Shown: positions 26,465-44,619 of the stretch, in pieces
How the letters are laid out: every line of letters begins with the position of its first letter
Position numbering within the stretch: the first letter of the stretch is position 1
From: Pseudomonas pisciculturae
GTDB taxonomy: Bacteria > Pseudomonadota > Gammaproteobacteria > Pseudomonadales > Pseudomonadaceae
NCBI RefSeq assembly: GCF_015461805.1
Contig: NZ_JACVZE010000006.1
Location: 310,001-374,000 of the forward strand
Direction: 5' to 3'
DNA: 64,000 nt
Made by a program: the position numbers and the translations under genes
The notes under the pieces: model-generated
What the model was told of the DNA's origin: nothing
Database searches by the model: none
The model's input: only the letters and a program-made list of their open reading frames with translations

Positions 26465-27805
26465 TCAAAAAATCTTGATGGGCACGTTAACGATCAGCCG
26501 AAACTCTTCGACGTTGCCTTCCGCCTGGTACTGGCTAGCGCGATGCCAGACGTAGCCGCCGAGCACATTGGCGCCCTTTAAATTGCCGGACTGGATGACG
26601 TAACTGGCGAATGTGCCCACCTCGTAGTGGCTTTCGTTGTCTTGCTTGATTACTGAGGAATAAATACCGTTGGTGCCGCCGTCATAGTGCGTGCCATCGA
26701 TGCCCCAGCCTTTGATGTACCAGAGATTGGTTTTAAACCCCGGTAATCCATAGGCGGCGAAGTCATTGATGTAATTGATTTGGAATGAGCGTTCGTTGGG
26801 ACCGTTGTAAAGCGACAGTTGTGTGTTTGGCAAGTTGATCGCATTGGACTCGGCCACAAAGTCGAAGTATTCGTCTCCCTTGATTTGCTGAACGGTGAGT
26901 TTCAACGTGTGGTTTTTATACTTGGGTGTGAAGGTCAGGCCATAGGCCTGCTGGTCGATATTGCCGGCAGTTTTGCGCCCGCTCGCCTGGGTGTAGTAGA
27001 AGTCGAATTGCAAGTCACTGGTGATCACGTCCCCGTTGAACTGTCGTCCCAGCCCTACGTACTGGCGGTCCCAGATATCTTCAAATCGCGAGGCGTAGGC
27101 GCTGGCACGCCAGCCGCTCTTGGCAACGTAATCAGCGCCGAGATATCCGATGCCGTCGCTGGTGACCAGGCGCGAGCCAAAGGTCGGGCTCAAGTCCTGG
27201 CTGCCGGCCCCGGTGCGCGGTGTGCCTTTGTCGAAGTAGCCAGACTTGATCGTCAGACCTTCAATGTCATGGCTTTCCAATGACGCACCATCATAGGAGG
27301 CTGGAAGCGTTCGTGTATCCGAGTAGTTCATCACTGGCGTCCTGACCTGGTGCCGGCCAATCTTGATGACGGTGTCGGATATTTTGAACTTCAGGGCCGC
27401 GACACCCGCCTTGGCCCAGTCGTCGACAACGTTGCCATCCTTGTCTGCCAGCAGACGATTGCTACCGCCGGCAGTGGCCAACTTGCTGCGTTCCAGTGAA
27501 ATAGCCGAATACAATGAGACATCCAGACCAAAGCCGACCATGCCTTGGGTAAAACCGGAGACATAGTCGAGCTTTAAGCCCTGCAGCCACGCGGTGCGGT
27601 CATGCACGTTACGCACACCGTCGGAAGTTTGAGCACGATAAAAGTTGGCCTTGCGGGCGATCTCGTGGGAGTACCACTGACGGGTATTGAGGGTCAGCGA
27701 ACTGTCTTCGATAAAGCCGGCTTCCTGGGCCTGGGTGGTAGTGGGTGTCAGAAAAAACACAGCCGAAAGCCCTACGGCCACTTGGGTCGAACGCACGATT
27801 TGCAT
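26465..27805 (-). CDS. OprD-family outer-membrane porin (copy 1)
   Basis: The 446-residue precursor has a signal peptide (MQIVRSTQVAVGLSAVFFL to about residue 26, TTTQA/QEA) and then the OprD pattern beginning GFIEDSSLTLNTRQWYSHEI. It ends in phenylalanine, as outer-membrane barrels do. It should form an 18-strand channel for a small carboxylate or amino-acid-like solute. It is the near twin of the porin at 32721-34061: same length, the same N-terminal and C-terminal sequences, and a conserved leader. It has its own upstream region, 155 bp behind the M14 gene. The substrate is not known. Confidence 0.92.
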   Translation of the reverse strand: MQIVRSTQVAVGLSAVFFLTPTTTQAQEAGFIEDSSLTLNTRQWYSHEIARKANFYRAQTSDGVRNVHDRTAWLQGLKLDYVSGFTQGMVGFGLDVSLYSAISLERSKLATAGGSNRLLADKDGNVVDDWAKAGVAALKFKISDTVIKIGRHQVRTPVMNYSDTRTLPASYDGASLESHDIEGLTIKSGYFDKGTPRTGAGSQDLSPTFGSRLVTSDGIGYLGADYVAKSGWRASAYASRFEDIWDRQYVGLGRQFNGDVITSDLQFDFYYTQASGRKTAGNIDQQAYGLTFTPKYKNHTLKLTVQQIKGDEYFDFVAESNAINLPNTQLSLYNGPNERSFQINYINDFAAYGLPGFKTNLWYIKGWGIDGTHYDGGTNGIYSSVIKQDNESHYEVGTFASYVIQSGNLKGANVLGGYVWHRASQYQAEGNVEEFRLIVNVPIKIF

Positions 27806-27898
27806 AACTTGCTTCCTATAGAGGACTTTATTGTTGTTTTGGCAGTGCAGTTACATCGAACGCTTACTTCATCGTTATTGTTTTATGGCTTCATAAAG
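27806..27898 (-). repeat. Leader/promoter segment shared by the two oprD genes (copy 1)
   Basis: The 93 bases before porin copy 1 match the 82 bases before copy 2 (34062-34143) closely. Shared parts include TTACATCGAACGCTTAC (27851-27867), GGCAGTGCA, and AACAACAATAA on the minus strand at 27828-27838. The last is an extended AAnAAnAA Crc/Hfq motif just before the ribosome-binding site. The conservation outside the coding region implies that both genes were duplicated together with their controls. Confidence 0.7.
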
Positions 27899-27960
27899 TG
27901 GCGGCTATGCGGCCAGGGTGAAGCTGGGGCAATACCGCCGGGTTGAACTAAAAAGTGCGG

Positions 27961-29052
27961 TTAACCAGCGCTGAGCCCTTGCAGGGTTTGCAGCAGTACC
28001 ACTCGCATCTGGCCGAGAATCGAGCCCTTCCAATAGTCGTGGTCGCAATAGAAACCGCTGTACAGGTCCTGGTGAATGGCGCGTCGTTGCGATTCGCTGG
28101 CGTGCGGGTTGTTGCGTACCCATTGATCGGCACGTAGGCGATCGAGCATCACCATGTCCGGCAAGGTGCCGAACTCCAGCCCCATGGACGTCACCGCTGC
28201 CGAAGGGCATTCATCGTACGCGACGCTGACGATCGGCCCGGAGACATCCGGCGAAACAGAGTCGCCTTCAAATGGCGCGAACACATCGGTGCCCCACCAA
28301 GCGCGTGCACGTTGCAGGCCATCCGGGCGGCCCGGGTAGATTTTTTCGCCGTGACCATGCGGGCCCAGTCCCGTATGAACATCAATCCAGGCGATATCAG
28401 ACACGCCGCGGGAATGCTCGCGGATGATCGAGCGTACCGTCAGATTGCTCCACGCCGGTGCTTGGCCACCGTAAAACATGCCTTCGGGCATCTCGTACTG
28501 CCCCGAGCACAGCGCCGTGCGGTAACCGCGCTCACCGTGTTGCTCGATGTACGCAGCCCTGGCTGCTTCCTGTTCGGGGGTGGGCGGCCAGTCAGCGGGG
28601 AGTACCACGGTGTGCACTTCTGGATAGCCAGCGTTCTCTGGCAGTGGTTTGGAAAAATCAATGTGGTTACGGTTCAGGTCGACGTTGTCTTCGTTCGTAC
28701 GTCGGACATGGGAGAAACCGTATGGGTTGACGGCATGGATCAGCAGCAAGCGCACGTCTGCCTTCTCAAGGCGCGCCAGCAGATCCGTGTCGTTTAATGC
28801 GGCGACCTGGCAGCCTGAGCCACAGAACCCTTCGGGGCCGTGGGTGCCGGAGGAGACGACCAACAGTTTTTTTGCATCGGCATTGCCCAGCACGGCAACG
28901 TCCATCGCCAAGGTTTCACCAAACGCACCTTGATAGCCATTCAATTCAAACGACTGGATATGAGCGCTTTGTTCTGCTGCTGCATCCAGGAATTTACGCC
29001 GCGCTTCGGCGTAGCTGGAGGAAAAAAAGCGCGAGGGGGAGTGAGCTTGCAT
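27961..29052 (-). CDS. M14-like zinc hydrolase of the DUF2817 family
   Basis: A 363-residue protein with the zinc-carboxypeptidase pattern of DUF2817: HGPEG near residue 70 (HxxE ligands), NPYGFSHVRRTNEDNVDLNRN (substrate arginines/asparagine) and WIDVHTGLG near residue 222 (third ligand). There is no signal peptide, so it is cytoplasmic. M14 relatives include carboxypeptidases and aspartoacylase-like amidases; the substrate of this family is not settled. The gene lies 33 bp behind the MFS carrier and is co-transcribed with it, which suggests hydrolysis of an imported amide or peptide-like conjugate. The start at 29052 has GGAAGG upstream. Confidence 0.8.
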   Translation of the reverse strand: MQAHSPSRFFSSSYAEARRKFLDAAAEQSAHIQSFELNGYQGAFGETLAMDVAVLGNADAKKLLVVSSGTHGPEGFCGSGCQVAALNDTDLLARLEKADVRLLLIHAVNPYGFSHVRRTNEDNVDLNRNHIDFSKPLPENAGYPEVHTVVLPADWPPTPEQEAARAAYIEQHGERGYRTALCSGQYEMPEGMFYGGQAPAWSNLTVRSIIREHSRGVSDIAWIDVHTGLGPHGHGEKIYPGRPDGLQRARAWWGTDVFAPFEGDSVSPDVSGPIVSVAYDECPSAAVTSMGLEFGTLPDMVMLDRLRADQWVRNNPHASESQRRAIHQDLYSGFYCDHDYWKGSILGQMRVVLLQTLQGLSAG

Positions 29053-29085
29053 AATTGCCTTCCGGTCCGTTTCAAGAAAAGGGGG

Positions 29086-30414
29086 TTAAGCGACGGCGTT
29101 TGCCACTTCAACGTCGACGTCCACGGGTGCCTTGTCGATATCGACGCCGGTGTGGTCCTTCAGCCACAGCAACCCCAACAGCGAAACCAGGGTCGCCGCG
29201 AGCAGATACCAGGCAGGGGCCAACTTGCTGCCGCTGGCATTGACCAACCAACTGCTGATAAACGGCGCGAAGCCACCGAACAGCGAAACGCCGACGCTGA
29301 ACACCAGCGACATGCCGCTGGCTCGCACATGCTTGGGAAACATTTCCGGCAACATGGTGAGCAGCGCGACCGATTGAAAGACCAGGCACACGCTCATCGC
29401 ACCGACCACCAGGAACAGCACGGTGGCGCTCGGTTCTGCGTTAAGCCACAGAAAGGCGGGATAGACGTGGATAGCCATGGCCAGACGGCTCCACAGGATC
29501 GGGCGCTTGCGCCCAACGCGGTCGCATAGCTGGCCCACGAACGGCGCGAGAGCAAACGAGATAACGCCGGTGATCACCGCGCCAAACAGCGCGACGGTGG
29601 GCGGTAATCCCAGTTCACGCACCGCATAGGTGGGCATATAAAACGTGATCACATACGCAGCGACCGTGCCGCCCGCCACTGCGAGGATCGCTGCCAGCAC
29701 GCGGCCGCCATAGTTGACGCACACTTCCGAGAGCGGGCTGCGGCGCTTTTGGGTCGAGGTGGCCGGTACGTCCAGCGATTCCTCAAGATGGCGACGGATA
29801 TAGGCGCCCACCGGCGCAATCAGCAGGCCCAGCACGAAGGGGACGCGCCAGCCCCAGGTTTCCATGGCTTCGGTCGACAGCGCAGCCATCAAGCCGCCGA
29901 CGACCAGCGCACCGAGCAAAATGCCCAGGCCCTGACTGGCGAACTGCCAACTCGCCATGTAAGCCCGGTTGGTTGGAGTGGCGTGTTCCACCAGCAAGGT
30001 GGTGGACGCACCCACTTCACCGCCAGCGGAGAAGCCCTGGATCAGCCGGGCGAACAAAATCAGCAGCGGCGCCGCAACGCCGATCTGCGCATAGGTTGGT
30101 GTGATTGCGATGATCCCGCAGCCCAGCGCCATCAAGCCTATCGTCAGGCTCATGGCTTTTTTGCGACCGCAGCGATCGGCATACGCGCCAATCACGATGC
30201 CGCCCAGCGGGCGCATGATAAAGCCCACGCCAAAACTTGCGACGGTCAGCAAGAGCTGGCCGTAGCTGCTGAAGGTTGGGAAGAACAGCTTGCCGATGAT
30301 CAGGGCGAGAAAGCCGTAGACGGTGAAGTCAAAATATTCCAGGGCATTGCCGATCGTGATGGCGACGATGGTTTTGCGCCGGTTGGGGGCGGGTTGCTTT
30401 GCACGGGCGTTCAT
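29086..30414 (-). CDS. MFS transporter of the metabolite:H+ symporter (MHS) type
   Basis: A 442-residue carrier with about 12 membrane segments. The opening NALEYFDFTVYGFLALIIGK and the loop GAYADRCGRKKAMSLT are the usual MHS signatures (ShiA, ProP and citrate carrier relatives). The start is taken at the ATG at 30414 (MNARAKQPAPNRRK); an in-frame start 24 codons earlier gives an implausible N-terminus. It would import an organic acid or zwitterion with protons. A 58-nt element shared with the LysR gene upstream region lies 75-132 bp before it. The M14 hydrolase gene follows. Confidence 0.86.
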   Translation of the reverse strand: MNARAKQPAPNRRKTIVAITIGNALEYFDFTVYGFLALIIGKLFFPTFSSYGQLLLTVASFGVGFIMRPLGGIVIGAYADRCGRKKAMSLTIGLMALGCGIIAITPTYAQIGVAAPLLILFARLIQGFSAGGEVGASTTLLVEHATPTNRAYMASWQFASQGLGILLGALVVGGLMAALSTEAMETWGWRVPFVLGLLIAPVGAYIRRHLEESLDVPATSTQKRRSPLSEVCVNYGGRVLAAILAVAGGTVAAYVITFYMPTYAVRELGLPPTVALFGAVITGVISFALAPFVGQLCDRVGRKRPILWSRLAMAIHVYPAFLWLNAEPSATVLFLVVGAMSVCLVFQSVALLTMLPEMFPKHVRASGMSLVFSVGVSLFGGFAPFISSWLVNASGSKLAPAWYLLAATLVSLLGLLWLKDHTGVDIDKAPVDVDVEVANAVA

Positions 30415-30488
30415 TAGGTTGACCTTTGAGGTGGTGAGCACGTCAGGTTTTTTTTGTGAGTAGCGGTCAGCTGGGGTGAGCCTCATTC

Positions 30489-30546
30489 ATGCTAGGCAGA
30501 TACACTTCAGATAAAAAGACAATAATGTTGTCAGGGTGATAGCAAA
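30489..30546 (+). repeat. 58-nt shared control element, copy 1 (before the MHS carrier)
   Basis: ATGCTAGGCAG (30489-30499) and a 35-nt block (30512-30546) recur at identical spacing at 34318-34375. The core GACAATAATGTTGTC (30518-30532) is an inverted repeat GACAA/TTGTC, a plausible operator for the LysR regulator encoded at 34399. Confidence 0.65.
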
Positions 30547-30652
30547 AAAACATCGCATTGTGCGCCCTGAAACATAGCCGGCCCAGTGGGTTGAGCCGTG
30601 CCAATCATGTCCGTGTGTGGGGTGTATGCCTTAGTTGCGTGAGGCTCGCCTG

Positions 30653-32602
30653 TCAGAACCGGTAACCACGCGGATACAGAGGCGCTTGGCTGTCGTCTGG
30701 CAATGACGGAGACTGCTCACGCACCGCTGCCATTGACGAGGGCAGTTCGAACGGCAAATGCCCCTGCGGTGTGGCGCGGCCGACGATCACATCCAACAGC
30801 GCTGCGTCGCTGGCGCCGAAGTTGACCAGTAAGGCAGCCGCTTTGTCCTTGATATTAGTCAGGATCGCGGGGCGGTCGAGATACACCGACACGATCGTCG
30901 GCACTCTGGCGCTGGCGCGTTTGACGGCCTCGTAGTCGCGGTCGCCATCACGGAAGTCCAGCCGACCCTCGTGCTGACGGCGGCCGAAAAAGTGATACGG
31001 ATGCAGTATTTCATGCGGTGCGCTGATGCGGATGATGGCCAATTCTGCCGACTCGGGCGTGTCGACGACGGTGAACCCGTAGGTTTCGGCCACCGCGCGG
31101 TCCACGCCGGACAGGAACACCTTTTTGTGCGCCGGCGCGACTGGCAGCATGGCCTGGTTCTCCAGGAGTACCTGGGCCCGCCGTTGCGTAAAATCCGCTG
31201 CCTTGACGAACTGTGGATTACCCACGACCCGCTCAGCTTCCACCGGATCCACATACGGGTTCTCGAACAGCCCCAGTGCGAATTTTTGCTCCAGAATGCG
31301 CTGGGCGGAGGCGTCGATGCGCTCCACGGGTACTTCGCCGGCCTGCACCGCTGACAGCAGCGGCTGCACCGCGTCAGACCCGCCAAACTGGTCCAGCCCC
31401 GCCAGAACGCCCTTGACCAGGCGTTGCTGCAGGGTTAACGACTCCACCCCCCAGGGCATTGCGATCGATTGCGGCAGTTGTGAGTGCTCGCCACTCGGCG
31501 CACGGCAGGTATCGTCACAGTCGTCGGTGATCGCCCAATCAGACAGGATCAGGCCCTTGAAGTGGTACTTTTCGCGAAGCAGCTCAAGGAGCTGGCGATT
31601 AAAGCCTGCGCCTACTGGCTCGATTGGCTGGCCGTCCAGCGTCAGGCCGGTGACGATCCCGTAGGTTGGCATGATGGTCGAGGCATGCGCGGAAAAGGCG
31701 CCTTGAAACGCGCGCACGTGCAGGGCGAAGCTTTTCTCGTCCATGACCAAATGGCGCCCATAGTAGCTGTGTGCATCGAAGCCCTCCGGCTCTGCGCCAT
31801 AACCCACCCAGTGTTTGACCGCAGTGGCTACACTCAGCGGTCCCAGGCCATCTGGGCCCTGGAAGCCTTGCACGTAGGCTTCGACTTGATCACTGACCTG
31901 TTGCGGATCGGCACCAAACGTCGCAGCACCGCGTGGCCAGCGCGGTTCGCTCGCCAGATCAGCCTGGGGTGACAGCGCCACCCGAAAGCCGACCGCGCGG
32001 TACTCGGCGCTGGCGATCTCGGCAAACCGACGGGTTTGCGCGGGATCCTGCAGTGCTGCCAGGCCGAGTGTTTCGGGCCATTGTGAAAAGGCCACGCCCT
32101 TGACCGAGGCGCCGCTGACCAACTGGAAGTGATGGCGCGGATCGGTGCTGATGGAGACCGGAATGCCCCAACGTGTAGATTCGGCCAGCGTTTGCACCTG
32201 GTTGTTTTGCTCAGCGAGTTTTCCCGGTGCTACCGAAAGTCGCGAGATGAAACTGTTGACGTGCTTGTCCTGCACCAGGGGACGCAGCGCCTCCAGGTCG
32301 TAACCGACCGTCGAGGCACCAATCGGTGCGCCGATACCGGGCAGGGTCGAGTGGAACATCAGCCCGACTTTTTCTTCCAGGCTCATGCGACTTGCAAGGT
32401 CTGCGGCCCTGCGTTCGGGAGCCAGCCGCCAGTCCTCAAACGGCTCCAACCGGCCATTGCGATCCAAGTCCTTAAAGCGCAGTCCATTCAGCTCGATCAC
32501 CGGGGCGCTGCGCGTGCCGATGACCGGCTGTGTCTGCGCCGCGTCTGTGGCGCAGGCGTTTGCGGCCAGCGCGATAAAAAAAACAGGTAGCACGTGTCTC
32601 AT
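30653..32602 (-). CDS. Exported family 3 glycoside hydrolase (beta-glucosidase-like)
   Basis: A 649-residue precursor with a signal sequence (MRHVLPVFFIALAANACATD). The cysteine at residue 17 makes a lipoprotein possible, although the -3 residue is not the usual leucine. The GH3 N-terminal domain carries KHWVGYG near residue 230 and the nucleophile aspartate in LILSDW near residue 352; the GH3 C-terminal domain follows, with no fibronectin-like tail. It starts at the ATG at 32602 with GGAGTC upstream. It should release sugar from a beta-linked glycoside in the periplasm. It lies between porin copy 2 and the carrier gene; the substrate is unknown, and a plant aromatic glucoside is one possibility. 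Confidence 0.85.
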   Translation of the reverse strand: MRHVLPVFFIALAANACATDAAQTQPVIGTRSAPVIELNGLRFKDLDRNGRLEPFEDWRLAPERRAADLASRMSLEEKVGLMFHSTLPGIGAPIGASTVGYDLEALRPLVQDKHVNSFISRLSVAPGKLAEQNNQVQTLAESTRWGIPVSISTDPRHHFQLVSGASVKGVAFSQWPETLGLAALQDPAQTRRFAEIASAEYRAVGFRVALSPQADLASEPRWPRGAATFGADPQQVSDQVEAYVQGFQGPDGLGPLSVATAVKHWVGYGAEPEGFDAHSYYGRHLVMDEKSFALHVRAFQGAFSAHASTIMPTYGIVTGLTLDGQPIEPVGAGFNRQLLELLREKYHFKGLILSDWAITDDCDDTCRAPSGEHSQLPQSIAMPWGVESLTLQQRLVKGVLAGLDQFGGSDAVQPLLSAVQAGEVPVERIDASAQRILEQKFALGLFENPYVDPVEAERVVGNPQFVKAADFTQRRAQVLLENQAMLPVAPAHKKVFLSGVDRAVAETYGFTVVDTPESAELAIIRISAPHEILHPYHFFGRRQHEGRLDFRDGDRDYEAVKRASARVPTIVSVYLDRPAILTNIKDKAAALLVNFGASDAALLDVIVGRATPQGHLPFELPSSMAAVREQSPSLPDDSQAPLYPRGYRF

Positions 32603-32720
32603 GCGAGGACTCCGAATTCCAGGGTGTGAGCAATAGCGTTGTGGGGGGGGATAACCAACCAGCATCAAAGCGGGGCGGCGCGCGTGGCGTCCCCCCCTTA
32701 GTGCGAGCCTTATCGACTGA

Positions 32721-34061
32721 TTAGAAAATCTTGATCGGCACATTGAAGACCAGCCGAAACTCTTCAACATTGCCTTCCAATTGATGCCCGCTGCCGCGGT
32801 GCCAGACATAGCCACCAAATACATTGGCCCCCTTTAACTGACCCGATTGCAGGACGTAGCTGGCAAATGCGGCAATTTCGTGATGACTTTCATTGTCTTG
32901 CTTAAGTACCGAGGTATAGATGCCATTGGTACCGCCGTCATAATGCGTGCCATCTATGCCCCAACCTTTGATGTACCAAAGATTGGTTTTAAAGCCTGGC
33001 ACGCCATAAGCGGCAAAGTCGTTGATGTAATTGATTTGAAATGAGCGCTCATTGGGGCCGTTGTAGTTCGATAATTGGCTGTTGGGCAAAGTGAATGCAT
33101 TCGATTCGGATACAAGATCGAAATACTCATCGCCGTTTATCTGTTGGTAGGAGAGTTTTAGCGTGTGGTTTTTATACTTTGGCGTAAATGTGAGGCCGTA
33201 GGCCTGCTGGGCGATCTTGCCGGCCACTTCACTGCCGCTGGATTGGGTGTTGTAGAAGTCCACTTGCACATCAGTGGCAATGTCGAACCAGTTGAATTGC
33301 CGCCCCGCACCCAGGTACTGGCGGTCCCAGATGTCTTTGAAGCGAGAGGTGTAGGCACTGGCGCGCCAGCCGCTCTTGGACAGGTAGTCCGCACCGCCAT
33401 AGGCAATCCAGTCACTGGTGACCAGGCGTGAGCCGTACGTGGGGTGCAACGCTTCACTGCCCGCCGCGGTGCGGGGTGTACCCCGGTCAAAATAACCAGA
33501 TTTGATCGTCAGCCCTTCAATATCGTGGCTTTCCAGCGACGCGCCATTGTACGAGGAGGGCGGCATGCGGGTGTCCGAGAAGCCCATGACCGGCGTCCTG
33601 ACCTGATGCCGGCCGACCTTGGCCACGGTGTCTGCGACTTTGAATTTCAGCGCCGCGATACCGAGCTTGCTCCAATCGTCGACCACACCACCGTCGGCGT
33701 TTACCAGCAGGCGGTTTCCGCCGCCCGCGGTGGCCAACTTGCTGCGCTCCAGCGCGACGACCGAGTAAAGCGACAGGTCCAGGCCAAAACCGACCATGCC
33801 TTGGGTAAAGCCGGACACATAGTCGAGCTTGGCGCTCAGCGACCACGCAGTACGGTCATGCACCTTACGCACGCCATCAGAGGTGTGGGCGGTGTAGTAG
33901 TTGTCCTTGCGGGCGATTTCGTGGGAGTACCATTGGCGGGTATCGAGGGTCAGCGAACTGTCCTCGATAAAGCCGGCTTCCTGGGCCTGAAGTGTCATTG
34001 GAGCTAAAAAAAACACGGCCGAAAACCCTACGGCCACTTGGGTCGAACGCACGATTTGCAT
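32721..34061 (-). CDS. OprD-family outer-membrane porin (copy 2)
   Basis: The 446-residue precursor starts MQIVRSTQVAVGFSAVFFL and matures after about residue 26 (TLQA/QEA). The mature part begins GFIEDSSLTLDTRQWYSHEI and ends VPIKIF, identical or nearly so to porin copy 1 at 26465. The real start is at 34061; the frame is open another 37 codons through the conserved leader. Differences between the copies cluster in segments that should be extracellular loops, which may alter substrate choice. It is followed after 118 bp by the glycoside hydrolase gene, the DNA between holding a G8 tract and a C7 tract. Confidence 0.92.
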   Translation of the reverse strand: MQIVRSTQVAVGFSAVFFLAPMTLQAQEAGFIEDSSLTLDTRQWYSHEIARKDNYYTAHTSDGVRKVHDRTAWSLSAKLDYVSGFTQGMVGFGLDLSLYSVVALERSKLATAGGGNRLLVNADGGVVDDWSKLGIAALKFKVADTVAKVGRHQVRTPVMGFSDTRMPPSSYNGASLESHDIEGLTIKSGYFDRGTPRTAAGSEALHPTYGSRLVTSDWIAYGGADYLSKSGWRASAYTSRFKDIWDRQYLGAGRQFNWFDIATDVQVDFYNTQSSGSEVAGKIAQQAYGLTFTPKYKNHTLKLSYQQINGDEYFDLVSESNAFTLPNSQLSNYNGPNERSFQINYINDFAAYGVPGFKTNLWYIKGWGIDGTHYDGGTNGIYTSVLKQDNESHHEIAAFASYVLQSGQLKGANVFGGYVWHRGSGHQLEGNVEEFRLVFNVPIKIF

Positions 34062-34143
34062 GTTTGCTTCCTGTAGAGGATTTATTGTTGTTTTGGCAGT
34101 GCAATTACATCGAACGCTTACATCAAAAATTATTGTTTTATGG
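34062..34143 (-). repeat. Leader/promoter segment shared by the two oprD genes (copy 2)
   Basis: This is the counterpart of 27806-27898. It carries the same TTACATCGAACGCTTAC block and the same minus-strand AACAACAATAA (34082-34092) before the ribosome-binding site. The similarity stops at about 34143, where unique sequence leads towards the LysR gene. Confidence 0.7.
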
Positions 34144-34317
34144 CAGGGACGGGCAGGTATTTCTGCGCACAAGAAAGTGCTGCATTAGTTCCGCCGATTA
34201 TTGCGTCAAGCGTGCGTTTAGCTAAGGGTGTGGTGTATGGGTAATCATCTGGTTGGCCTCTGAATAGGTGCGAACATCGGTTCTTCGCGTAGCACTCAAT
34301 TGTGATGCGCTTCACAG

Positions 34318-34375
34318 ATGCTAAGCAGTTAAACTCTGCTTAAAAAGACAATAATGTTGTCAGTGCGATAGCAAA
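34318..34375 (+). repeat. 58-nt shared control element, copy 2 (before the LysR gene)
   Basis: This copy has ATGCTAAGCAG at 34318-34328 and the 35-nt block at 34341-34375, which differs from copy 1 at two positions. The GACAA/TTGTC inverted repeat is at 34347-34361, 38-52 bp before the regulator start. It lies in the 337-bp gap between porin copy 2 and the LysR gene; the rest of that gap shows no open frame of note. Confidence 0.65.
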
Positions 34376-34398
34376 CCGGCATCCCCACGAGGCGCTTT

Positions 34399-35289: not shown

Positions 35290-35293
35290 TGGC

Positions 35294-36199: not shown

Positions 36200-36290
36200 G
36201 GCGGGTCTTCTTATTAGTTTTATGAATATTTTCTATTTTTGATATTGGGTGTCTCAATAACTTAGGCAGCCCTAGAGTGTCCGTCAATAC

Positions 36291-36298
36291 AAAAACAA
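36291..36298 (+). promoter_or_regulatory. Candidate Crc/Hfq motif before the salicylate/gentisate operon
   Basis: AAAAACAA matches AAnAAnAA and lies 23 bases before the GTG start at 36321, upstream of the strong AGGAGGT site. Confidence 0.4.
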
Positions 36299-36320
36299 GA
36301 CTGGATTCCTAGGAGGTAAC

Positions 36321-37310: not shown

Positions 37311-37312
37311 AT

Positions 37313-38353
37313 ATGTCGTTGCCTAATCTCTCAAGCGCGAACCCTCGCGCAGCGTTTTACGCGCGCCTGGATCAGCAGAGCATGGCGCCCTTATGGGAGT
37401 CGTTGCATGCGCTGGTGCCACCGCGGCCTGCTACCGAGGTCAAACCCAGCGTCTGGCGTTATGCGCAAATGCGCCCGTACCTGATGGAAGCCGGTGAGTT
37501 GATCACGGCTGCCGAAGCTGAGCGTCGGGTGTTGATCCTGGAAAACGAAGGCTTGCGCGGTCAGGCGGCCGTGACGCAAAGCCTGTACGCCGGCTTGCAG
37601 TTGATCCTGCCCGGTGAAGTCGCGCCGGCCCATCGTCACGCCCAATCGGCACTGCGCCTGGTGTTGGAAGGTGAGGGCGCGTACACCGCCGTTGACGGCG
37701 AACGCATCCCGATGAGCCGCGGCGATTTCATCATCACGCCGGCCCACACCTGGCACGACCATGGTCACGACGGCCAAGGCCCGGTGGTATGGCTGGACGG
37801 CCTGGACATTCCCCTGGTGCGTTTCATGGGGGCCGGCTTTGCTGAAAAGGCCAGTGATTCCATGCAACAGGTGACCAAACCCCAAGGTGACTCCCTGGCC
37901 CGTTACGGTTGCAACATGGTGCCGGTGGATTACCAGGCCGCCCCCGAAACGCCATCGCGTCTCTGCCATTTCCGTTATGTCGACACCCGTGCGGCCTTGA
38001 CCCAATTGTTGCGCAGCACACCCGACGTGCACACCGGCCACAAGCTGCGGTTCGTCAATCCGGCCACCGGGCGTTCGCCCATGCAGACCATCGGCACCTA
38101 CGTGCAAGCACTGCCGGCCGGATTTAGCACGGCGCCGCTGCGCAGTACCGACAGCACCGTGTATTGCTGCCTGGAGGGTCGCGGTTTGGCCCGGATCGGC
38201 GAGCTCGAAGTCGCCTTTGACGAACGCGACATCTTTGTCGTGCCGTCCTGGGTGACGGTGCAGTTGGAGGCAGCAGTCGAGTGCGTGCTGTTCAGTTATT
38301 CCGATCGCCCCGTTCAGGAAGCGCTCGGCTTGTGGAAAGAAGAGAGGAGTTGA
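37313..38353 (+). CDS. nagI: Gentisate 1,2-dioxygenase
   Basis: A 346-residue bicupin. The first cupin holds HRHAQSALRLVLEGEGAYT near residues 105-125 with the iron-binding histidines, and TPAHTWHDHGH further on. The C-terminal cupin (CCLEGRGLARIG) lacks a full ligand set, as in other gentisate dioxygenases. It cleaves gentisate between C1 and C2 to maleylpyruvate. It follows the reductase gene by 2 bp and precedes the fumarylpyruvate hydrolase gene by 4 bp. Length matches NagI-type enzymes. 1-Hydroxy-2-naphthoate dioxygenase is a relative, but the isomerase and hydrolase here favour gentisate. Confidence 0.9.
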   Translation: MSLPNLSSANPRAAFYARLDQQSMAPLWESLHALVPPRPATEVKPSVWRYAQMRPYLMEAGELITAAEAERRVLILENEGLRGQAAVTQSLYAGLQLILPGEVAPAHRHAQSALRLVLEGEGAYTAVDGERIPMSRGDFIITPAHTWHDHGHDGQGPVVWLDGLDIPLVRFMGAGFAEKASDSMQQVTKPQGDSLARYGCNMVPVDYQAAPETPSRLCHFRYVDTRAALTQLLRSTPDVHTGHKLRFVNPATGRSPMQTIGTYVQALPAGFSTAPLRSTDSTVYCCLEGRGLARIGELEVAFDERDIFVVPSWVTVQLEAAVECVLFSYSDRPVQEALGLWKEERS

Positions 38354-38357
38354 GCTG

Positions 38358-39053
38358 ATGAGTGCTTATGTATTTGCCCCGGCCGCCGTGCGCAGCCTGC
38401 CCATTACCAACAGCAAACAGCAGTTTGCCGTGCACCGGATCTTCTGTGTTGGCCGCAACTATGCCGCCCACGCCCGTGAGATGGGCCGCGATCCAGATCG
38501 CGAGCCGCCGTTTTTCTTTATGAAGCCTGCCGCCGCGCTGGTGGTGAGCAACCCCAGCGCGACGATTCCGTACCCGCCGCAAACCAGCAACTTTCACTAC
38601 GAAGCCGAACTGGTGGTGGCGATTGGCAAGGGCGGGCGCGATATCCCGTTGGCGCGTGCCCTAGAGCATGTGTATGGCTATGCGGTCGGGCTGGATATGA
38701 CCCGCCGCGACATTCAATTGCAGGCGCGTGAACAGGGGCGGCCGTGGGAGTTCGGCAAGTCATTCGCGCTGTCGGCGCCGATTGGCCCGATCTATTCGGT
38801 CAGCCAGGTCGGTTTTCTTGAGCACGCGACTATCCAGTTGCAGGTCAATGGCGTGACCAAGCAAAACTCCGATATCAGCAAACTCATCTGGTCGGTGGCG
38901 GAGTGCATTGCCCACCTGTCGACATTTGACGAGTTGACCGAGGGTGATCTGATCATGACCGGCACCCCCGAAGGCGTCGGTGCCGTGGTGCCCGGCGACC
39001 TGATGCGCGTGTCGATTGACGGCATCGGCCACATCGAAGTCAGCGTGGCCTGA
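38358..39053 (+). CDS. nagK: Fumarylpyruvate hydrolase (FAH family)
   Basis: A 231-residue fumarylacetoacetase-fold hydrolase. The opening IFCVGRNYAAHAREMG and the metal ligands in NFHYEAELVVAIG, with an aspartate in GYAVGLDMTRRD, are standard for the family, and TGTPEGVGAVVPGD ends the active site. In the gentisate pathway it splits fumarylpyruvate into fumarate and pyruvate. Size and genes next to it match NagK. It is followed by a hairpin and then the large oxygenase subunit gene. Confidence 0.9.
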   Translation: MSAYVFAPAAVRSLPITNSKQQFAVHRIFCVGRNYAAHAREMGRDPDREPPFFFMKPAAALVVSNPSATIPYPPQTSNFHYEAELVVAIGKGGRDIPLARALEHVYGYAVGLDMTRRDIQLQAREQGRPWEFGKSFALSAPIGPIYSVSQVGFLEHATIQLQVNGVTKQNSDISKLIWSVAECIAHLSTFDELTEGDLIMTGTPEGVGAVVPGDLMRVSIDGIGHIEVSVA

Positions 39054-39060
39054 CATCCCC

Positions 39061-39082
39061 GGCGATCCTGTGAAGGATCGCC
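39061..39082 (+). other. Intercistronic hairpin between nagK and nagG
   Basis: GGCGATCCT and AGGATCGCC form a perfect 9-bp stem with a 4-base loop and no T run. It is more likely an mRNA-stabilising or processing structure, setting oxygenase dosage, than a terminator. Confidence 0.5.
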
Positions 39083-39108
39083 CCTATAACCATAAGAAGG
39101 AGACTGGG

Positions 39109-40380
39109 ATGAACCTCATCTACGGTAACCCCGCCAATGCTCAAGCGCAGATGCCTGCGTGGCAGGAGGACGGCTCCAGCCGGATTCCGTTCTGGGCCTA
39201 TACCCGTGACGACGTCTACCAACGTGAGCTGGAACGTATTTTCTATGGCAAACACTGGTCCTACGTTGGGCTGGAGGCTGAAATCCCCACCCCGGGCGAC
39301 TTCAAACGCACGGTGGTGGGCGAGCGCTCAGTGATTCTGGTGCGGGCCAACGATGGCAGCGTCAATGTGGTGGAAAACGTCTGTGCCCATCGTGGCGTCA
39401 AGTTCTGTCGCGAGAAGTCCGGCAATCGCAAGGACTTCACCTGCCCGTATCACCAATGGAACTACGACCTGACCGGCAAGCTGCAAGGCGTGCCGTTCCG
39501 GCGTGGCGTCAAGCAGGACGGCAAGGTCAATGGCGGCATGCCCGCTGACTTCAAACCCGAGGAGCATGGCCTTACCCGGTTGAAGGTGGCGGTGCGCAAC
39601 GGCGTGGTGTTCGCCTCGTTCGATCACGATATCGAGCCGTTGGAGGACTACCTGGGCCCGGACATCGCCGCCTATTTCGACCGTACCTTCGACGGCCGCA
39701 AATTGAAGCTGCTGGGCTACAACCGCCAACGCATTCCAGGCAACTGGAAACTGATGCAGGAAAACATCAAAGACCCGTATCACCCGGGGCTGCTGCACAC
39801 CTGGTTTGTGACCTTCGGCCTGTGGCGCGCCGACAATAAATCGAAGTTGATCATGGATGAACAGTTCCGCCACGCCGCGATGATCTCCACCCGGGGCGAG
39901 GGCGGTAAAAGTGATGTCACCAGCGGGGTCAGCAGCTTCAAGGAAAGCATGACGCTGAACGACATGCGTTTTCTTGACGTGGAATACGAACCCTGGTGGA
40001 AGGGCCCGACCGCTGTGCTGATGACGCTGTTCCCCAGTGTGATCATCCAGCAGCAGGTCAACTCGCTGTCGACCCGGCATATACAGCCCAATGGCCCGCA
40101 CTCGTTCGATTTTGTCTGGACCCATTTCGGCTTTGAAGACGACAGCGAGGAAATGACCCAGCGCCGTCTGCGTCAGGCCAACTTGTTCGGCCCGGCGGGC
40201 TTTGTTTCGGCGGATGACGGTGAAGTCATCGAGTTTTCCCAGGAAGGCTTCAACCAGAAACCCGCGCACCGCACCCTGGTGGAGCTGGGCGGACGCGACT
40301 GCGAGCACGCCGATCATATGGTCACCGAAACGCTGATCCGCGGCATGTACAACTATTGGCGCAAGGTGATGGGGCTCTGA
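39109..40380 (+). CDS. nagG: Large (Rieske/non-haem iron) subunit of a salicylate 5-hydroxylase-like oxygenase
   Basis: The 423-residue protein binds a Rieske cluster through CAHRGVKFC...CPYH (about residues 91-112) and a mononuclear iron through the DPYHPGLLH motif near residues 221-229. It resembles NagG, the large subunit of salicylate 5-hydroxylase, in length and in the N-terminal style (RIPFWAYTRDDVYQRELERI). With the small subunit, ferredoxin and reductase it would convert salicylate to gentisate, consistent with the gentisate genes in the same operon. A related substrate such as anthranilate or another 2-substituted benzoate is possible. The start is the ATG at 39109 behind AAGGAGAC. 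Confidence 0.87.
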   Translation: MNLIYGNPANAQAQMPAWQEDGSSRIPFWAYTRDDVYQRELERIFYGKHWSYVGLEAEIPTPGDFKRTVVGERSVILVRANDGSVNVVENVCAHRGVKFCREKSGNRKDFTCPYHQWNYDLTGKLQGVPFRRGVKQDGKVNGGMPADFKPEEHGLTRLKVAVRNGVVFASFDHDIEPLEDYLGPDIAAYFDRTFDGRKLKLLGYNRQRIPGNWKLMQENIKDPYHPGLLHTWFVTFGLWRADNKSKLIMDEQFRHAAMISTRGEGGKSDVTSGVSSFKESMTLNDMRFLDVEYEPWWKGPTAVLMTLFPSVIIQQQVNSLSTRHIQPNGPHSFDFVWTHFGFEDDSEEMTQRRLRQANLFGPAGFVSADDGEVIEFSQEGFNQKPAHRTLVELGGRDCEHADHMVTETLIRGMYNYWRKVMGL

Positions 40381-40381
40381 G

Positions 40382-40858
40382 ATGAAGACTGACCAAGAGA
40401 CGTTTTTTGCCCTGGTTGCCTTGCAGGCCGACTACAGCGCTGCGCTGGATGCAGCTGACTGGGACCGCTGGCCGGAGTTTTTTACCGAACAGTGCGTGTA
40501 TAAGCTCCAGCCGCGCGAAAACCACGAACAGGGCTGGCCGCTGGCGACCCTCAGCTTTGAAAGTAAAGGCATGCTCAAGGACCGCATCTACGGCATCCGC
40601 GAAACCCTGTTCCATGATCCGTACTACCAACGCCATGTGGTCAGCCTGCCGCGCATCCTCGGCGACGACGGCACGCGTATTCAGGTCGAGACCAACTATG
40701 CGGTGTTTCGTACCAAGCCGGACGAGCCCAGCAGTGTCTTCAATGTGGGACGCTACCTGGACAGCGTGGTCAGGACACCCGATGGCCTGCGTTTGGAATC
40801 CAGGCTGTGCGTGTTTGACAGCGAGATGATCCCCAACTCGATTATCTACCCGATCTGA
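40382..40858 (+). CDS. nagH: Small subunit of the salicylate 5-hydroxylase-like oxygenase
   Basis: A 158-residue protein of the ring-hydroxylating dioxygenase beta-subunit family (snoaL-like fold), with the segments [20 protein letters not shown] and [16 protein letters not shown]. It has no metal ligands and supports the hexameric oxygenase structure. It starts 1 bp after nagG, and the ferredoxin gene follows after 8 bp. Length matches NagH. Confidence 0.88.
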
Positions 40859-40866
40859 GGTGTGCC

Positions 40867-41181
40867 ATGAATGAAGAATGGATCAACGTGGCGGCTTTGG
40901 CAGATGTCCCCGAGGACGATGTGATCGGGCTGGTGGCCAACGGCCGTGATGTGGCGCTGTACAAGGTCGAAGGCGAAGTGTTTGCCACTGACAATCTGTG
41001 CACCCACGGTAACGCGCGCCTTAGCGATGGCTTCCTTGAAGATGGCCAAATTGAATGCCCGCTGCACCAGGGGCGCTTTTGCGTGAAGAGCGGCGAGGCG
41101 CTGTGTGCGCCGCTCACCGAAAATATCCGGGTCTATCCGGTGCGGATCGAGGGTGAGCGGATCTTGCTGAACCTCGTTTGA
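40867..41181 (+). CDS. nagAb: Rieske [2Fe-2S] ferredoxin of the oxygenase
   Basis: A 104-residue Rieske ferredoxin with the ligands [11 protein letters not shown] and CPLHQGRF (Cys-x-His, Cys-x2-His), near residues 44-66. It carries electrons from the reductase encoded at 36321 to the oxygenase. Together these make a complete three-component system. In naphthalene strains the same ferredoxin is shared with naphthalene dioxygenase, but no such genes are seen here. Confidence 0.9.
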
Positions 41182-41195
41182 GCCTTGCCTACTAA

Positions 41196-41206
41196 AACAA
41201 CAATAA
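41196..41206 (+). promoter_or_regulatory. Candidate Crc/Hfq motif before the AAHS carrier gene
   Basis: AACAACAATAA, an extended AAnAAnAA run, is followed by AAGG and the ATG at 41217. It is the same string found before both oprD genes. Confidence 0.55.
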
Positions 41207-41216
41207 AGGTCCTGCC

Positions 41217-42560
41217 ATGAGTCATTCCACTGCACTAGATGTCAGTCACCTGATCGATATCAACCCCCTCAGCCGTTTCCAGATTTTGGTAATCGTGCTG
41301 TGTGGCATCGTCGCGATGCTGGACGGCTTTGATACCCAATCCATCGCCTATGTGGCGCCGGCGATTGCGGCGGAGTGGGGCCTGGCTCCTGCCAGTTTTG
41401 GCCCGGTGTTCGGTGCGGGGCTGCTGGGGCTGACGGTGGGGGCCGTGATCTTTGGGCCCATGGCCGACCGTGTAGGCCGGCGCAAAGTGATTGTGCTATC
41501 CACCGTGCTGTTTGCGGTGTTTGCGTTACTGACGGTGACCGTCCGCTCGCTGGATGAGCTGCTGCTCCTGCGATTTCTCACCGGGATCGGACTGGGCGGT
41601 GCAATGCCCAACCTGATCGCCCTGACTTCGGAATACTCGCCCAAACGCCTACGGGCGACCATGGTCACGGTTATGTTCGCCGGTTTCCCGTTGGGCTCCA
41701 TGCTCGGCGGTTTCGTCAGTGCCCAAATGATCCCGATCTGGGGTTGGCGCTCGGTATTCTTCCTTGGCGGTGTGCTGCCCCTGCTGGCGTGGCCGGTGTT
41801 GCTGCTGTGGTTGCCGGAGTCGATTCGATTCCTGGCAGCCAAGGGCAATCAGACTGACAGCGTGCGTGGCATCGTCCGCCGCTTGGTACCGGGTGGTGCC
41901 TTTGCGGCAGAGGCACGCTTTTATCTGCCGGAAACCCGGCATACCGGTTTTGCGGTCGCGCATTTGTTCAAGGCAGGCCGCTGGCGCATGACGTTGCTGA
42001 TCTGGGTAACGTTTTTCATGAACCTGTTGGTGATGTACTTCCTGGTGAACTGGTTGCCGTCCCTGCTCAAAGAAGCTGGTCTACCGCTCAAGACCGCCAT
42101 TTTGGGCACCGCGTTGCTGAACGGGGGTGGAGTGATCGGCAGCGTGATCATTGCGCGTGCAGTCGACCGCTTTAATCCCTTCAAAGTGCTGGCGGTGGCG
42201 TACACCGGGGCGGCTGTGTTTGTGGCGCTGTCAGCGATACAAAGCCTGCCGGTAACGCTGTTGCTGGCCGCGGTGTTTTTTGCTGGGTTTGGCATCGTCG
42301 GCGCTCAGTTGGGCGTCAACGCGGTGGTTGCCGATTTGTATCCAACGGCGTTTCGCTCCACCGGCATTGGCTGGGCGTTGGGCGTGGGGCGCATTGGATC
42401 GATCCTCGGCCCTGTCGCAGGCGGGATGCTGCTTGCGGTTGGTTGGGAAGGGCACTCGATTGTGATGATTGCCGCGCTGCCGGCGCTAGTGGCCGCCGTG
42501 GCGGTGACGCTATTGGGGCGCACCCGTCAACCCCGCGGTGCGTTGAACCCTCAGTCTTGA
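41217..42560 (+). CDS. MFS aromatic-acid:H+ symporter (AAHS type)
   Basis: A 447-residue carrier with about 12 membrane segments. The AAHS signature is present: MLDGFDTQSIAYVAPAIA in helix 1 with the conserved DGFD, and GPMADRVGRRKVIV in the loop after helix 2. Relatives are PcaK, BenK and GenK. Its place in the operon suggests import of salicylate or gentisate. It starts 35 bp after the ferredoxin gene. Confidence 0.88.
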   Translation: MSHSTALDVSHLIDINPLSRFQILVIVLCGIVAMLDGFDTQSIAYVAPAIAAEWGLAPASFGPVFGAGLLGLTVGAVIFGPMADRVGRRKVIVLSTVLFAVFALLTVTVRSLDELLLLRFLTGIGLGGAMPNLIALTSEYSPKRLRATMVTVMFAGFPLGSMLGGFVSAQMIPIWGWRSVFFLGGVLPLLAWPVLLLWLPESIRFLAAKGNQTDSVRGIVRRLVPGGAFAAEARFYLPETRHTGFAVAHLFKAGRWRMTLLIWVTFFMNLLVMYFLVNWLPSLLKEAGLPLKTAILGTALLNGGGVIGSVIIARAVDRFNPFKVLAVAYTGAAVFVALSAIQSLPVTLLLAAVFFAGFGIVGAQLGVNAVVADLYPTAFRSTGIGWALGVGRIGSILGPVAGGMLLAVGWEGHSIVMIAALPALVAAVAVTLLGRTRQPRGALNPQS

Positions 42561-42588
42561 ACCCTTGTTTAACACCATGGAGCATCCG

Positions 42589-43227
42589 ATGATTTTGTAT
42601 GACTACTTCCGTTCGTCTGCGGCCTATCGCGTCCGTATTGCCTTGAACCTGAAAGGGCTGAGCGCCGAGCACCACTTCGTGCACCTACGCAAAGGCCAGA
42701 CCCGCACTGCAGATTATCTTGCGATCAATCCACAAGCCCTGGTGCCCAGCCTGGCAGTGGACCAAGGCGTGGTGCGTCAATCCCTGGCGATCATCGAGTA
42801 TTTGGACGAGGCGTTTCCAGACGTACCGCTGCTTCCGGCAGATGCTTTGGGGCGTGCGAGGGTGCGCAATCTGGCATTGGCCATAGCGTGTGATATCCAT
42901 CCACTGAACAACCTGCGTGTGCTCAGTTATTTGCGCGAAACCCTGGGTCTGGACGAGGCGGCTATCAACGCCTGGTGCAAGCGTTGGATCGAAGAAGGGC
43001 TGACGGCGCTGGAGGTGTTGTTGGTGACTGAATCGCCCGAAGGGGATTTTTGCCACGGGCACCAGCCGACACTTGCAGATGTGTGTCTGATGCCGCAGGT
43101 ATTCAGCGCGGAGCGTTTTGGGTGCGACCTTGGGCAATGGCCGAGGATCCAACGTATTGCCGCGCACTGCCGCACACTCGAGGCGTTTATCCAGGCTGCG
43201 CCGGAAAGGCAGCCGGATGCCGAGTGA
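42589..43227 (+). CDS. nagL: Maleylpyruvate isomerase (GST-like zeta class)
   Basis: A 212-residue zeta-class glutathione transferase with the motif YDYFRSSAAYRVRIALNLKG at the N-terminus (catalytic SS dyad) and HQPTLADVCLMPQVF in the C-terminal half. It isomerises maleylpyruvate to fumarylpyruvate, using glutathione, between the dioxygenase and hydrolase steps. The ATG at 42589 is preferred because ATGGAG 12 bases upstream serves as its site and the family N-terminus begins there. Maleylacetoacetate isomerase is the close alternative, made less likely by context. Confidence 0.88.
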   Translation: MILYDYFRSSAAYRVRIALNLKGLSAEHHFVHLRKGQTRTADYLAINPQALVPSLAVDQGVVRQSLAIIEYLDEAFPDVPLLPADALGRARVRNLALAIACDIHPLNNLRVLSYLRETLGLDEAAINAWCKRWIEEGLTALEVLLVTESPEGDFCHGHQPTLADVCLMPQVFSAERFGCDLGQWPRIQRIAAHCRTLEAFIQAAPERQPDAE

Positions 43228-43244
43228 GGACGAGGTGCATTAGG

Positions 43245-43259
43245 TTTGATTAAGTCAAA
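43245..43259. promoter_or_regulatory. Candidate MarR-type operator before the porin gene
   Basis: TTTGATTAAGTCAAA is an inverted repeat (TTTGA/TCAAA). A related 15-mer, 12 of 15 positions equal, lies at 45474-45488 before the dehydrogenase gene. The MarR gene at 44662 sits between the two. A second inverted repeat, GCTGTTTATACAGC, is at 43314-43327. No coding frame of note lies in 43228-43443. Confidence 0.45.
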
Positions 43260-43366
43260 TATATAAAAGCGCGTAGGGTTTGTTATGAGCATACCGGTCC
43301 AGCCACATTCACTGCTGTTTATACAGCGGTGAAACAGCGGGACTTGCTCAGTCTCTGGTTTTTGAA

Positions 43367-43377
43367 AATAACAATAA
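43367..43377 (+). promoter_or_regulatory. Candidate Crc/Hfq motif upstream of the porin gene
   Basis: AATAACAATAA matches AAnAAnAA over 11 bases, but it lies 67 bases before the ATG, farther than the other copies, so its effect is less certain. Confidence 0.35.
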
Positions 43378-43443
43378 GCTGGATTATTTGCGCTGTCTCA
43401 GTGCGGATTTTAGCTGCCAATAAAATAACCTAGGAGCAAACCC

Positions 43444-44619
43444 ATGAAACGTCCTTTGTTGCGTTTTGGGGTAGGCGTGTGCCTGATCGGCAGCGCTTTC
43501 CCCGTCTTCGCGCTGCAGGTCACTGATAACCTGCAAGTTGGCGCGGCGCTACGCGCGCGGATCGATTACGACCCCGATCGTGATATTCAAAAACTAAACT
43601 TCGACACCTTTCGGCCCTACATTAATTACAATTCAGATACTTGGATTGCCTCCGCCAGATACCGTTTCTACGGTAAAGCCTACCCCTATCAATACACCCA
43701 GCGATTTGGTGATATCTCCTTCGCCGAATACGCCTGGGTCGGCTACAAGTTTGATGAGAATCGACAGGTCCAAGTGGGGTTGAACCAGGTGCCCTTCGGC
43801 ATCCTGCCGTACTTCAGCAACACAGTGACTGAGACGCTGGGCTACACCCTTGGCCTGGAAGACCTGTACGAGGTGGGCGCTAAATACAAACAGAAGCTCG
43901 GCGATTGGGACCTACAGGCGGGCTACTACATACGCCCGGCCTGGCAGGGCAAGGGCACCAGTAAAGGTGGGGTCAGCTATTCCAACGTGCCGGCCGATGC
44001 CGACAGTTATGTCGAGGACGGGTCGAATAACCAGGAGCGCAATATGATTGCGCTGCGAGTGGCGAAAACCGTCGACCTGGACGGTTGGAAAACCGAGCTG
44101 GGGGTGTCGGCGCTGACGTCGCAGCTGCAGAACCGTGACACGGACGACAACGGCCGCAGAAACGCGTTGGCGTTGCACATGACCGGCACCAAGGGCGCAT
44201 GGACCACCGGCTTGCTGGCCGCACGCCAACAAATGTCGCCGCGCAATCCCGGTAACGACGATGTGGTGACGCTGGGTGGCTATGACAGTAGCTACAACAT
44301 TGCCAGCCGTGGCACATTGTTGATGGCGGACCTGAATTACGATATCGCTGGCAAATACCTGGGTGATTGGGTCAGTGCCATTAAGCTTTATGGCAACTAC
44401 AGTACGTTCCTGAAGTCCGGTAACGGTTACGAAGATACTCAGCGTTATATTGCGGGTGCATCGTTTATGCTCGGCGAGCATGTGTTTATCGCCGGTGAGT
44501 GGATCTTCGGCAAGAACGACCCGTATGTGGGGGGGAGTAGTTACACGCAAAGTCTTGCGGCAGGGGGCTCCAATCAATGGGAGAACCAGGTGCTGGCGAA
44601 TTTTGGGTATTACTTCTAA
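43444..44619 (+). CDS. Outer-membrane porin linked to the salicylate/gentisate genes
   Basis: The 391-residue precursor has a signal peptide (MKRPLLRFGVGVCLIGSAFP, cleavage after about VFA). The mature barrel is rich in aromatic-ended beta strands (FRPYINYNSDTWIASARYRF, AEYAWVGYKF) and ends with NFGYYF, a terminal phenylalanine typical of porins. It does not look like OprD; it resembles general or phosphate-type barrel porins only in outline, so no family name is given. Gene position suggests passage of aromatic acids. It is preceded by a possible MarR operator and followed by a strong terminator. Confidence 0.78.
   Translation: MKRPLLRFGVGVCLIGSAFPVFALQVTDNLQVGAALRARIDYDPDRDIQKLNFDTFRPYINYNSDTWIASARYRFYGKAYPYQYTQRFGDISFAEYAWVGYKFDENRQVQVGLNQVPFGILPYFSNTVTETLGYTLGLEDLYEVGAKYKQKLGDWDLQAGYYIRPAWQGKGTSKGGVSYSNVPADADSYVEDGSNNQERNMIALRVAKTVDLDGWKTELGVSALTSQLQNRDTDDNGRRNALALHMTGTKGAWTTGLLAARQQMSPRNPGNDDVVTLGGYDSSYNIASRGTLLMADLNYDIAGKYLGDWVSAIKLYGNYSTFLKSGNGYEDTQRYIAGASFMLGEHVFIAGEWIFGKNDPYVGGSSYTQSLAAGGSNQWENQVLANFGYYF

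Follow-up and report, generated by a model that had tools for sequence, protein, structure and literature searches.

Do the genes that adjoin a salicylate pathway in Pseudomonas pisciculturae open plant salicylate conjugates for that pathway, or do two separate catabolic modules simply lie side by side? The locus is part of a 64,000-nt stretch of contig NZ_JACVZE010000006.1 (positions 310,001 to 374,000; referred to here as the window, in whose own numbering coordinates are given) from a genome of 6.22 Mb. It consists of two modules, block 1 (26465–35289) and block 2 (35294–43227), arranged tail to tail after feaB (24915–26405). In block 1, oprD2–GH3 and MHS–DUF2817–oprD1 are read leftward and lysR1 rightward; in block 2, lysR2 is read leftward and the nag genes rightward. 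The two lysR genes converge, their ends lying 4 bp apart, and each is divergent from its own block.

The original prediction had taken both blocks for one system, in which an exported family 3 glycoside hydrolase (GH3) and an M14-type hydrolase release salicylate from its conjugates and the nag enzymes degrade it. Every gene that it named was recovered at its position by domain or family profile matches, and its interpretation of the cluster finds partial support. An amide hydrolase system has become more likely than before; a single system built from both blocks found no backing, as no tie between them was seen in 25 DUF2817 loci, in 80 GH3 loci (the best 80 of 557 matches) or in two nag loci. 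Co-occurrence of the blocks across genomes had been expected from that reading, and in the samples examined they are unlinked. We therefore favour, as reasonably probable, two independent modules: a nag pathway for salicylate, and a block 1 devoted to conjugate uptake and cleavage under LysR1.

The carrier and hydrolase of block 1

Judged by sequence, the core of block 1 is LysR1 together with the MHS carrier and the DUF2817 protein. The gene lysR1 (34399–35289, forward strand; PF00126/PF03466), divergent from oprD2, encodes the LysR regulator proposed for the block. The carrier (29086–30486, reverse strand) is an MHS-family metabolite/H+ symporter by its match to TIGR00883 (375 bits, below the cut-off of 443), and translation may in fact begin about 25 codons further downstream. 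In two Variovorax plasmids, the MFS gene directly before a DUF2817 gene (65%) encodes a protein with 73% and 71% identity to it, and in a second Variovorax locus LysR (41%), MHS (53%) and DUF2817 (46%) genes are contiguous.

The 25 DUF2817 loci compared, all besides the window, were chosen from the 58 of 199 genomes with a match and from 125 plasmid records. Sixteen are from the same genus (the 13 best matches besides the window and three of a 35–38% group, with two from genome G151) and nine from plasmid records (a single Variovorax plasmid supplied two of these and Caballeronia four; L160 was reached through lysR1). Neighbours were detected by tblastn at E <= 1e-8 with floors of 60–150 bits. 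An MHS relative is present in 13 of the 25 loci, in two of them (L136 and L138) at only 32–33% identity and some 7–8 kb off; a relative of M20 aminoacylases is present in seven, four of which are close Caballeronia relatives, and a C26 gene, of the gamma-glutamyl-hydrolase type, in two. Among loci fetched by MHS similarity, M20 adjoins the MHS gene in four of six, and two of these four carry a lysR1 relative (36–39%). Among solved proteins, the Caballeronia M20 comes nearest to ILL2 of plants, which bears the name IAA-amino acid hydrolase homolog 2. Since several relatives of the carrier and of the hydrolase adjoin ILR1-like M20 amidohydrolases or a C26 gene, the role on amide conjugates that had been predicted for this pair is strengthened. 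No M20 match lies within the window, and the only one in the genome belongs to a pair of an M20 aminoacylase and an MHS relative on another contig (~755.8–758.4 kb).

A locus from the genus (L134, 420–10869) carries genes for asparaginase II, an amino-acid ABC transporter, LysR, C26, DUF2817, MHS and OprD, and the row C26–DUF2817–MHS is present in Cupriavidus metallidurans CH34 too. The LysR–MHS–M14 and LysR–M20–MHS modules of Burkholderiales (Variovorax, Caballeronia, Burkholderia, Cupriavidus) have the same type of regulator as block 1, carriers 41–73% identical to its MHS protein and DUF2817 proteins up to 65% identical to its own, but block 1 adds two OprD porins and GH3 and has no M20. 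Our literature search found no experimental work on these modules.

The two porin genes, oprD1 (26465–27805; 446 amino acids) and oprD2 (32721–34061; ATG start read from the sequence at 34061), are both on the reverse strand and both match PF03573. The closest chain to OprD2 in the Protein Data Bank (PDB) is OpdP, a Gly-Glu dipeptide porin (361 bits, against 180 for OprD and 89 for OpdK), which makes it an OccD-type porin under the OccD/OccK grouping that we assume here. The OprD1 protein is 79.8% identical to OprD2, and would by this resemblance be OpdP-like and of the OccD type as well; the DNA upstream of the two genes is partly similar too, as in a duplicated pair. The pair, in direct orientation, brackets the GH3, MHS and DUF2817 genes, and recombination between the copies is a possible route to gene loss or amplification.

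The DUF2817 gene (27961–29052, reverse strand) encodes 363 amino acids, with no signal peptide visible by eye, and we propose that its product is a cytoplasmic amide hydrolase. The original prediction had called it a cytoplasmic M14-type hydrolase. This holds for the predicted fold and the active-site residues and fails for the family profile: the protein matches PF10994 and not PF00246 (Pfam, E <= 0.001), the two PF00246 matches of the genome being on other contigs. The AF2 model (pLDDT 79.5, pTM 0.84) aligns with carboxypeptidase 2c1c over 247 residues in VIA-align (Z 17.3, rmsd 3.2), and Foldseek ranks carboxypeptidases first (best E 3.7e-7), so that the M14 assignment is supported by the predicted fold. 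Conserved residues are H71 and E74 (HxxE), R118, N127-R128, H226 and E293; among 21 relatives, H71 and E74 are kept in at least 90% and the others are invariant. We take them to be zinc ligands, catalytic Glu and carboxylate-binding Arg and Asn-Arg by analogy with carboxypeptidase A. Membership in the AstE/AspA group was also considered but, as no sequence match backed it, not adopted: such structures come at Foldseek ranks 41 and 50, below the carboxypeptidases, and the Pfam scan gave DUF2817 only. The gene is present as a single copy in the genome, and in a class-wide sample (E <= 1e-85) in two of 369 genomes: that of the window and another, at 45%, in which a stop interrupts the match.

An exact 15-mer, GACAATAATGTTGTC, occurs as an operator-like palindrome upstream of the MHS gene (30518–30532) and again between oprD2 and lysR1 (34347–34361), and nowhere else in the window within three mismatches. 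Counted on both strands, the two places give four rows, against 0.96 expected. A 20-mer around the palindrome, with up to three mismatches, has only two occurrences in the 6.2 Mb genome, and both lie in block 1 (control 0); the palindrome pattern was picked after both sites had been seen. The core pattern with one mismatch is absent from the nag block. Block 1 may be co-regulated, since both sites are oriented alike toward the leftward oprD2 and MHS genes; LysR1 would then control oprD2(–GH3) and MHS–DUF2817(–oprD1) through the two palindromes, with operon limits as bracketed here.

The recurrence of the core, its M20 neighbours and the OpdP-like porins together suggest that block 1 most likely imports and splits an N-acyl-amino-acid-like conjugate. 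In the mechanism that we propose, the porins would let in a small conjugate of the acyl-amino-acid or dipeptide type, GH3, probably exported, could take off a beta-linked sugar, the MHS symporter would import the conjugate, and the M14-fold DUF2817 enzyme would cut the amide bond in the cytoplasm. The acyl part may possibly be salicylate or gentisate, adjacency to block 2 being the sole argument for a salicylate link.

The salicylate and gentisate genes of block 2

By its gene content block 2 appears to be an ordinary salicylate module, all nag genes being on the forward strand. The predicted salicylate 5-hydroxylase and gentisate pathway were borne out by the match of NagG to a solved enzyme, by curated family cut-offs and by the gene layout. 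NagG, the large oxygenase subunit (39109–40380, start read from the sequence at 39109), matches the solved salicylate 5-hydroxylase 7c8z with 777 bits over query residues 45–453 and is 76–79% identical to its counterparts in pXWY and Sphingobium sp. JS3065, that of JS3065 being annotated nagG. The small subunit NagH (40382–40858; PF00866) shows 56–58% identity in the same comparison, and the ferredoxin reductase NagAa (36321–37310; Fer2, FAD_binding_6, NAD_binding_1) is 56% identical to that of JS3065. The gene list of the original prediction lacked a ferredoxin. A Rieske ferredoxin gene, nagAb (40867–41181; 104 amino acids, Rieske protein match), is present, so that the hydroxylase is complete (Aa, G, H, Ab) and a nag block devoid of ferredoxin can be rejected.

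Of the gentisate enzymes, the 1,2-dioxygenase NagI (37313–38353; TIGR02272, 494 bits) and the GST-type maleylacetoacetate/maleylpyruvate isomerase NagL (42565–43227; TIGR01262, 289 bits) exceed the curated cut-offs of 442 and 171. NagK (38358–39053), presumed to be the fumarylpyruvate hydrolase, is assigned by PF01557 (FAA-type hydrolase) and by operon position, no NCBIfam equivalog scoring above cut-off. The aromatic-acid/H+ symporter (41217–42560) lies just under the cut-off of TIGR00895 (399 against 419 bits) and is 71% identical to the MFS protein of pXWY. The regulator proposed for the block, encoded by lysR2 (35294–36199, reverse strand), is 52.5% identical to the annotated NagR of JS3065 and diverges from nagAa as NagR does there. 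The symporter would import salicylate, NagAaGHAb would 5-hydroxylate it to gentisate, and the dioxygenase, the isomerase and the FAA-type hydrolase would open and degrade the gentisate, all under the NagR-like regulator.

The nag genes of JS3065 and pXWY share with block 2 a NagR-like regulator divergent from Aa and a contiguous G, H and Ab, and pXWY has its genes in the order seen in block 2 (regulator, Aa, G, H, Ab, MFS), save for the gentisate genes. In contrast to both, block 2 has the gentisate dioxygenase and the FAA hydrolase between Aa and G, and the naphthalene dioxygenase genes are absent from it. Ralstonia U2 reportedly has nag genes for salicylate 5-hydroxylase and the gentisate pathway. 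A near-identity search of plasmids with the whole 18.3 kb returned three records, each covering the nagG/nagH part only. Within the genus, nagG at E <= 1e-150 was found in one of 199 genomes, the window's own. A study of Massilia describes NagGH as lost in Pseudomonas in its comparison (PMC13215587). The Massilia clusters, from roots, likewise degrade salicylate via NagGHAaAb, and expression of such a cluster in rhizobia is described as giving higher salicylate tolerance and more root growth; conjugate-cleaving genes are not mentioned in the passages on these clusters (PMC13215587).

Downstream of nagL lies a porin gene (43444–44619, forward strand) with a weak match to Porin_O_P (PF07396, E 3e-5). 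DNA matches to it of 67–69%, apart from the other query parts listed, occur in at least 14 genomes of the genus, with two candidates scored per genome. Since relatives are this common, the porin need not belong with the nag genes, and we doubt that it has a nag-specific role.

The GH3 gene and the genomic surroundings

The GH3 gene (30653–32602, reverse strand; PF00933 and PF01915, both over cut-offs) overlaps the upstream porin gene when read from 32824; the start that gives a signal-peptide-like sequence by eye is 32602, and the protein of 649 amino acids is probably exported. Asp355 (in SDW), presumably the nucleophile, and the KH pair at 263–264 are invariant in 17 sequences. The closest PDB chain is the beta-glucosidase 9ul7 (438 bits), followed by SN243 (222 bits). 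At E <= 1e-60 the gene was found in two of 398 genomes of the genus, the window's and one at 52% in which an MFS and a TetR gene adjoin it.

A wider scan gave 557 matches, of which the best 80 were kept; several of these 80 loci are short contigs, so that neighbours could be missed there. The closest proteins among them, up to 59% identical, are mostly from Sphingomonadales, Caulobacterales, Rhizobiales, Enterobacterales and Gemmatimonadetes, those of Actinobacteria, Chloroflexi and others being mostly at 39–47%. OprD, DUF2817, MHS and nagG were each seen above 60 bits in none of the 80 loci. In four of the five Rhizobiales loci (L065, L067, L077 and L091), GH3 ends a ring-cleavage operon (~4000–11950) of Amidohydro_2, extradiol-type dioxygenase, MhpA-like FAD hydroxylase, MFS and FAA hydrolase genes, which makes phenolic glycosides plausible substrates. 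Here too a GH3 of the same clade (53% identical in L065) stands beside ring-cleavage genes and a carrier, but the hydroxylase and dioxygenase are of another type, a single operon takes the place of the two units here, and neither DUF2817 nor nagG was seen in these loci above 60 bits. Flavonoid operons are described whose enzyme types resemble those of the Rhizobiales operon (PMC11069340); the latter may possibly serve the degradation of aryl or flavonoid glycosides. A betaproteobacterial locus (L062) points the other way, away from ring cleavage, with GH3 in a sugar-acid-type operon (SDR, MR_MLE, Amidohydro_2, FAA hydrolase). The predicted action of GH3 on phenolic glycosides is thus possible in view of the neighbours that its clade can have, and its proposed connection with nagG found no counterpart in the 80 loci.

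Upstream of block 1 (5224–26405) lie phenylacetate-type genes (Aldedh/MaoC fusion, AMP-binding, thiolase, 3HCDH, enoyl-CoA hydratase, PaaX) and then feaR, tynA and feaB, so that a route from phenethylamine to phenylacetate stands directly before the block. On the other side, a MarR gene is followed by a region (45590–61051) with a DAO/GCV_T protein, two ETF-like subunits (recognized by eye), OpuAC, ETF-QO, a Rieske oxygenase with its reductase, a formyl transferase and a DAO protein, which looks like a region for the demethylation of glycine betaine, dimethylglycine and sarcosine. Nine relatives share the feaB end, and their DNA ceases to resemble the window at the stop codon of that gene (26403–26406); over the stretches compared beyond it (12–19 kb, but 0.9 kb in one relative), the only other match to the window is a 297-base piece of 14626–14922 in L153. 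The G+C profile of the region gave no clear island signal. A promoter scan stayed below the shuffled level (3 against 7.0), a terminator scan came close to it (23 against 18.3, sd 3.5), and an inverted-repeat search returned one 9-base palindrome.

Alternative explanations and biological meaning

Several observations weigh against the reading of block 1 that we favour. Among the 25 DUF2817 loci, 12 are without an MHS relative, 16 without both M20 and C26, and all 25 without GH3. The Foldseek TM-scores to carboxypeptidases are only about 0.4, and AF2 confidence is low at 113–134 and 185–199, covering R118 and N127-R128; the literature search brought up no substrate for a DUF2817 protein. Four rows of the 15-mer were reached in 4 of 100 shuffles, which is weak statistics within the window; when one mismatch is allowed, five sites fit the core pattern where 1.8 would be expected, an exact core match inside tynA at 24247 among them. 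Since the conserved core does not include GH3, what this enzyme does in block 1 is conjectural. A narrower form of the favoured explanation leaves it out altogether: block 1 would scavenge peptides or N-acyl-amino acids, and GH3, merely parked there, would act on an unrelated plant or microbial glycoside. We give this somewhat less than an even chance. No GH3 accompanied by DUF2817 or MHS was seen in the 25 and 80 loci, and its sugar-acid-type setting in the betaproteobacterium and its MFS and TetR neighbours in the other genus genome fit as well, but in the window it is flanked, on the same strand, by two units that both carry the putative operator.

It could also be that both blocks serve plant salicylate conjugates, GH3 releasing salicylate or gentisate from the glycosides in the periplasm, MHS and the M14-type enzyme acting on salicyloyl-aspartate, and the nag enzymes on the product. 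The two modules are adjacent, GH3 and nagG each occur in few genomes of the genus samples, an amide role is indicated for the DUF2817–MHS core, and ring cleavage beside this GH3 clade has a precedent in four of the 80 loci. We nevertheless regard such a joint function as unlikely: nagG was found in none of the 25 DUF2817 and 80 GH3 loci and block 1 genes in neither of the two nag loci, the regulators are separate, with no LysR1-type site in block 2, and the porin is OpdP-like, not OpdK-like. Moreover, the adjacency argument is weakened because the site holds several catabolic pathways, unrelated ones sharing this neighbourhood. That GH3 and the M14-type enzyme act instead on drug-type conjugates such as salicyl glucuronide and salicyluric acid seems very improbable. 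SN243, the second-closest solved GH3, is described as cleaving p-nitrophenyl (pNP)-beta-glucuronide very efficiently (PMC9730296), but the closest is named a beta-glucosidase, and no such cluster was found in the literature searched; that on salicylate conjugates and on M20/MHS modules yielded no described cluster either.

Under the favoured explanation the two blocks would work independently. A further proposal, which we hold to be rather improbable, is that the M14-type hydrolase and GH3 release salicylate or gentisate that is bound to amino acids and sugars and that the adjacent NagR-controlled operon mineralises the aglycone; with the same reserve, DUF2817 would in that case be a counterpart of the M20 ILR1 family, and the conjugates would enter through the dipeptide-type porins. 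The sal operon of Acinetobacter, which serves the use of salicylate esters, likewise combines cleavage of a conjugate with oxidation of salicylate, with an esterase there and not a glycosidase or amidase. In plants, salicylate is stored in glucoside and aspartate-conjugated form. If such scavenging were true, the bacterium could deplete the hormone that the plant keeps in store, and the opening of both conjugate forms with degradation of the product would be a further means by which root bacteria influence plant immunity. For the little-studied DUF2817 family, the present work predicts a fold, identifies a set of M14-like active-site residues and shows which neighbours recur (MHS, ILR1-like M20 and C26), and this makes its function directly testable.

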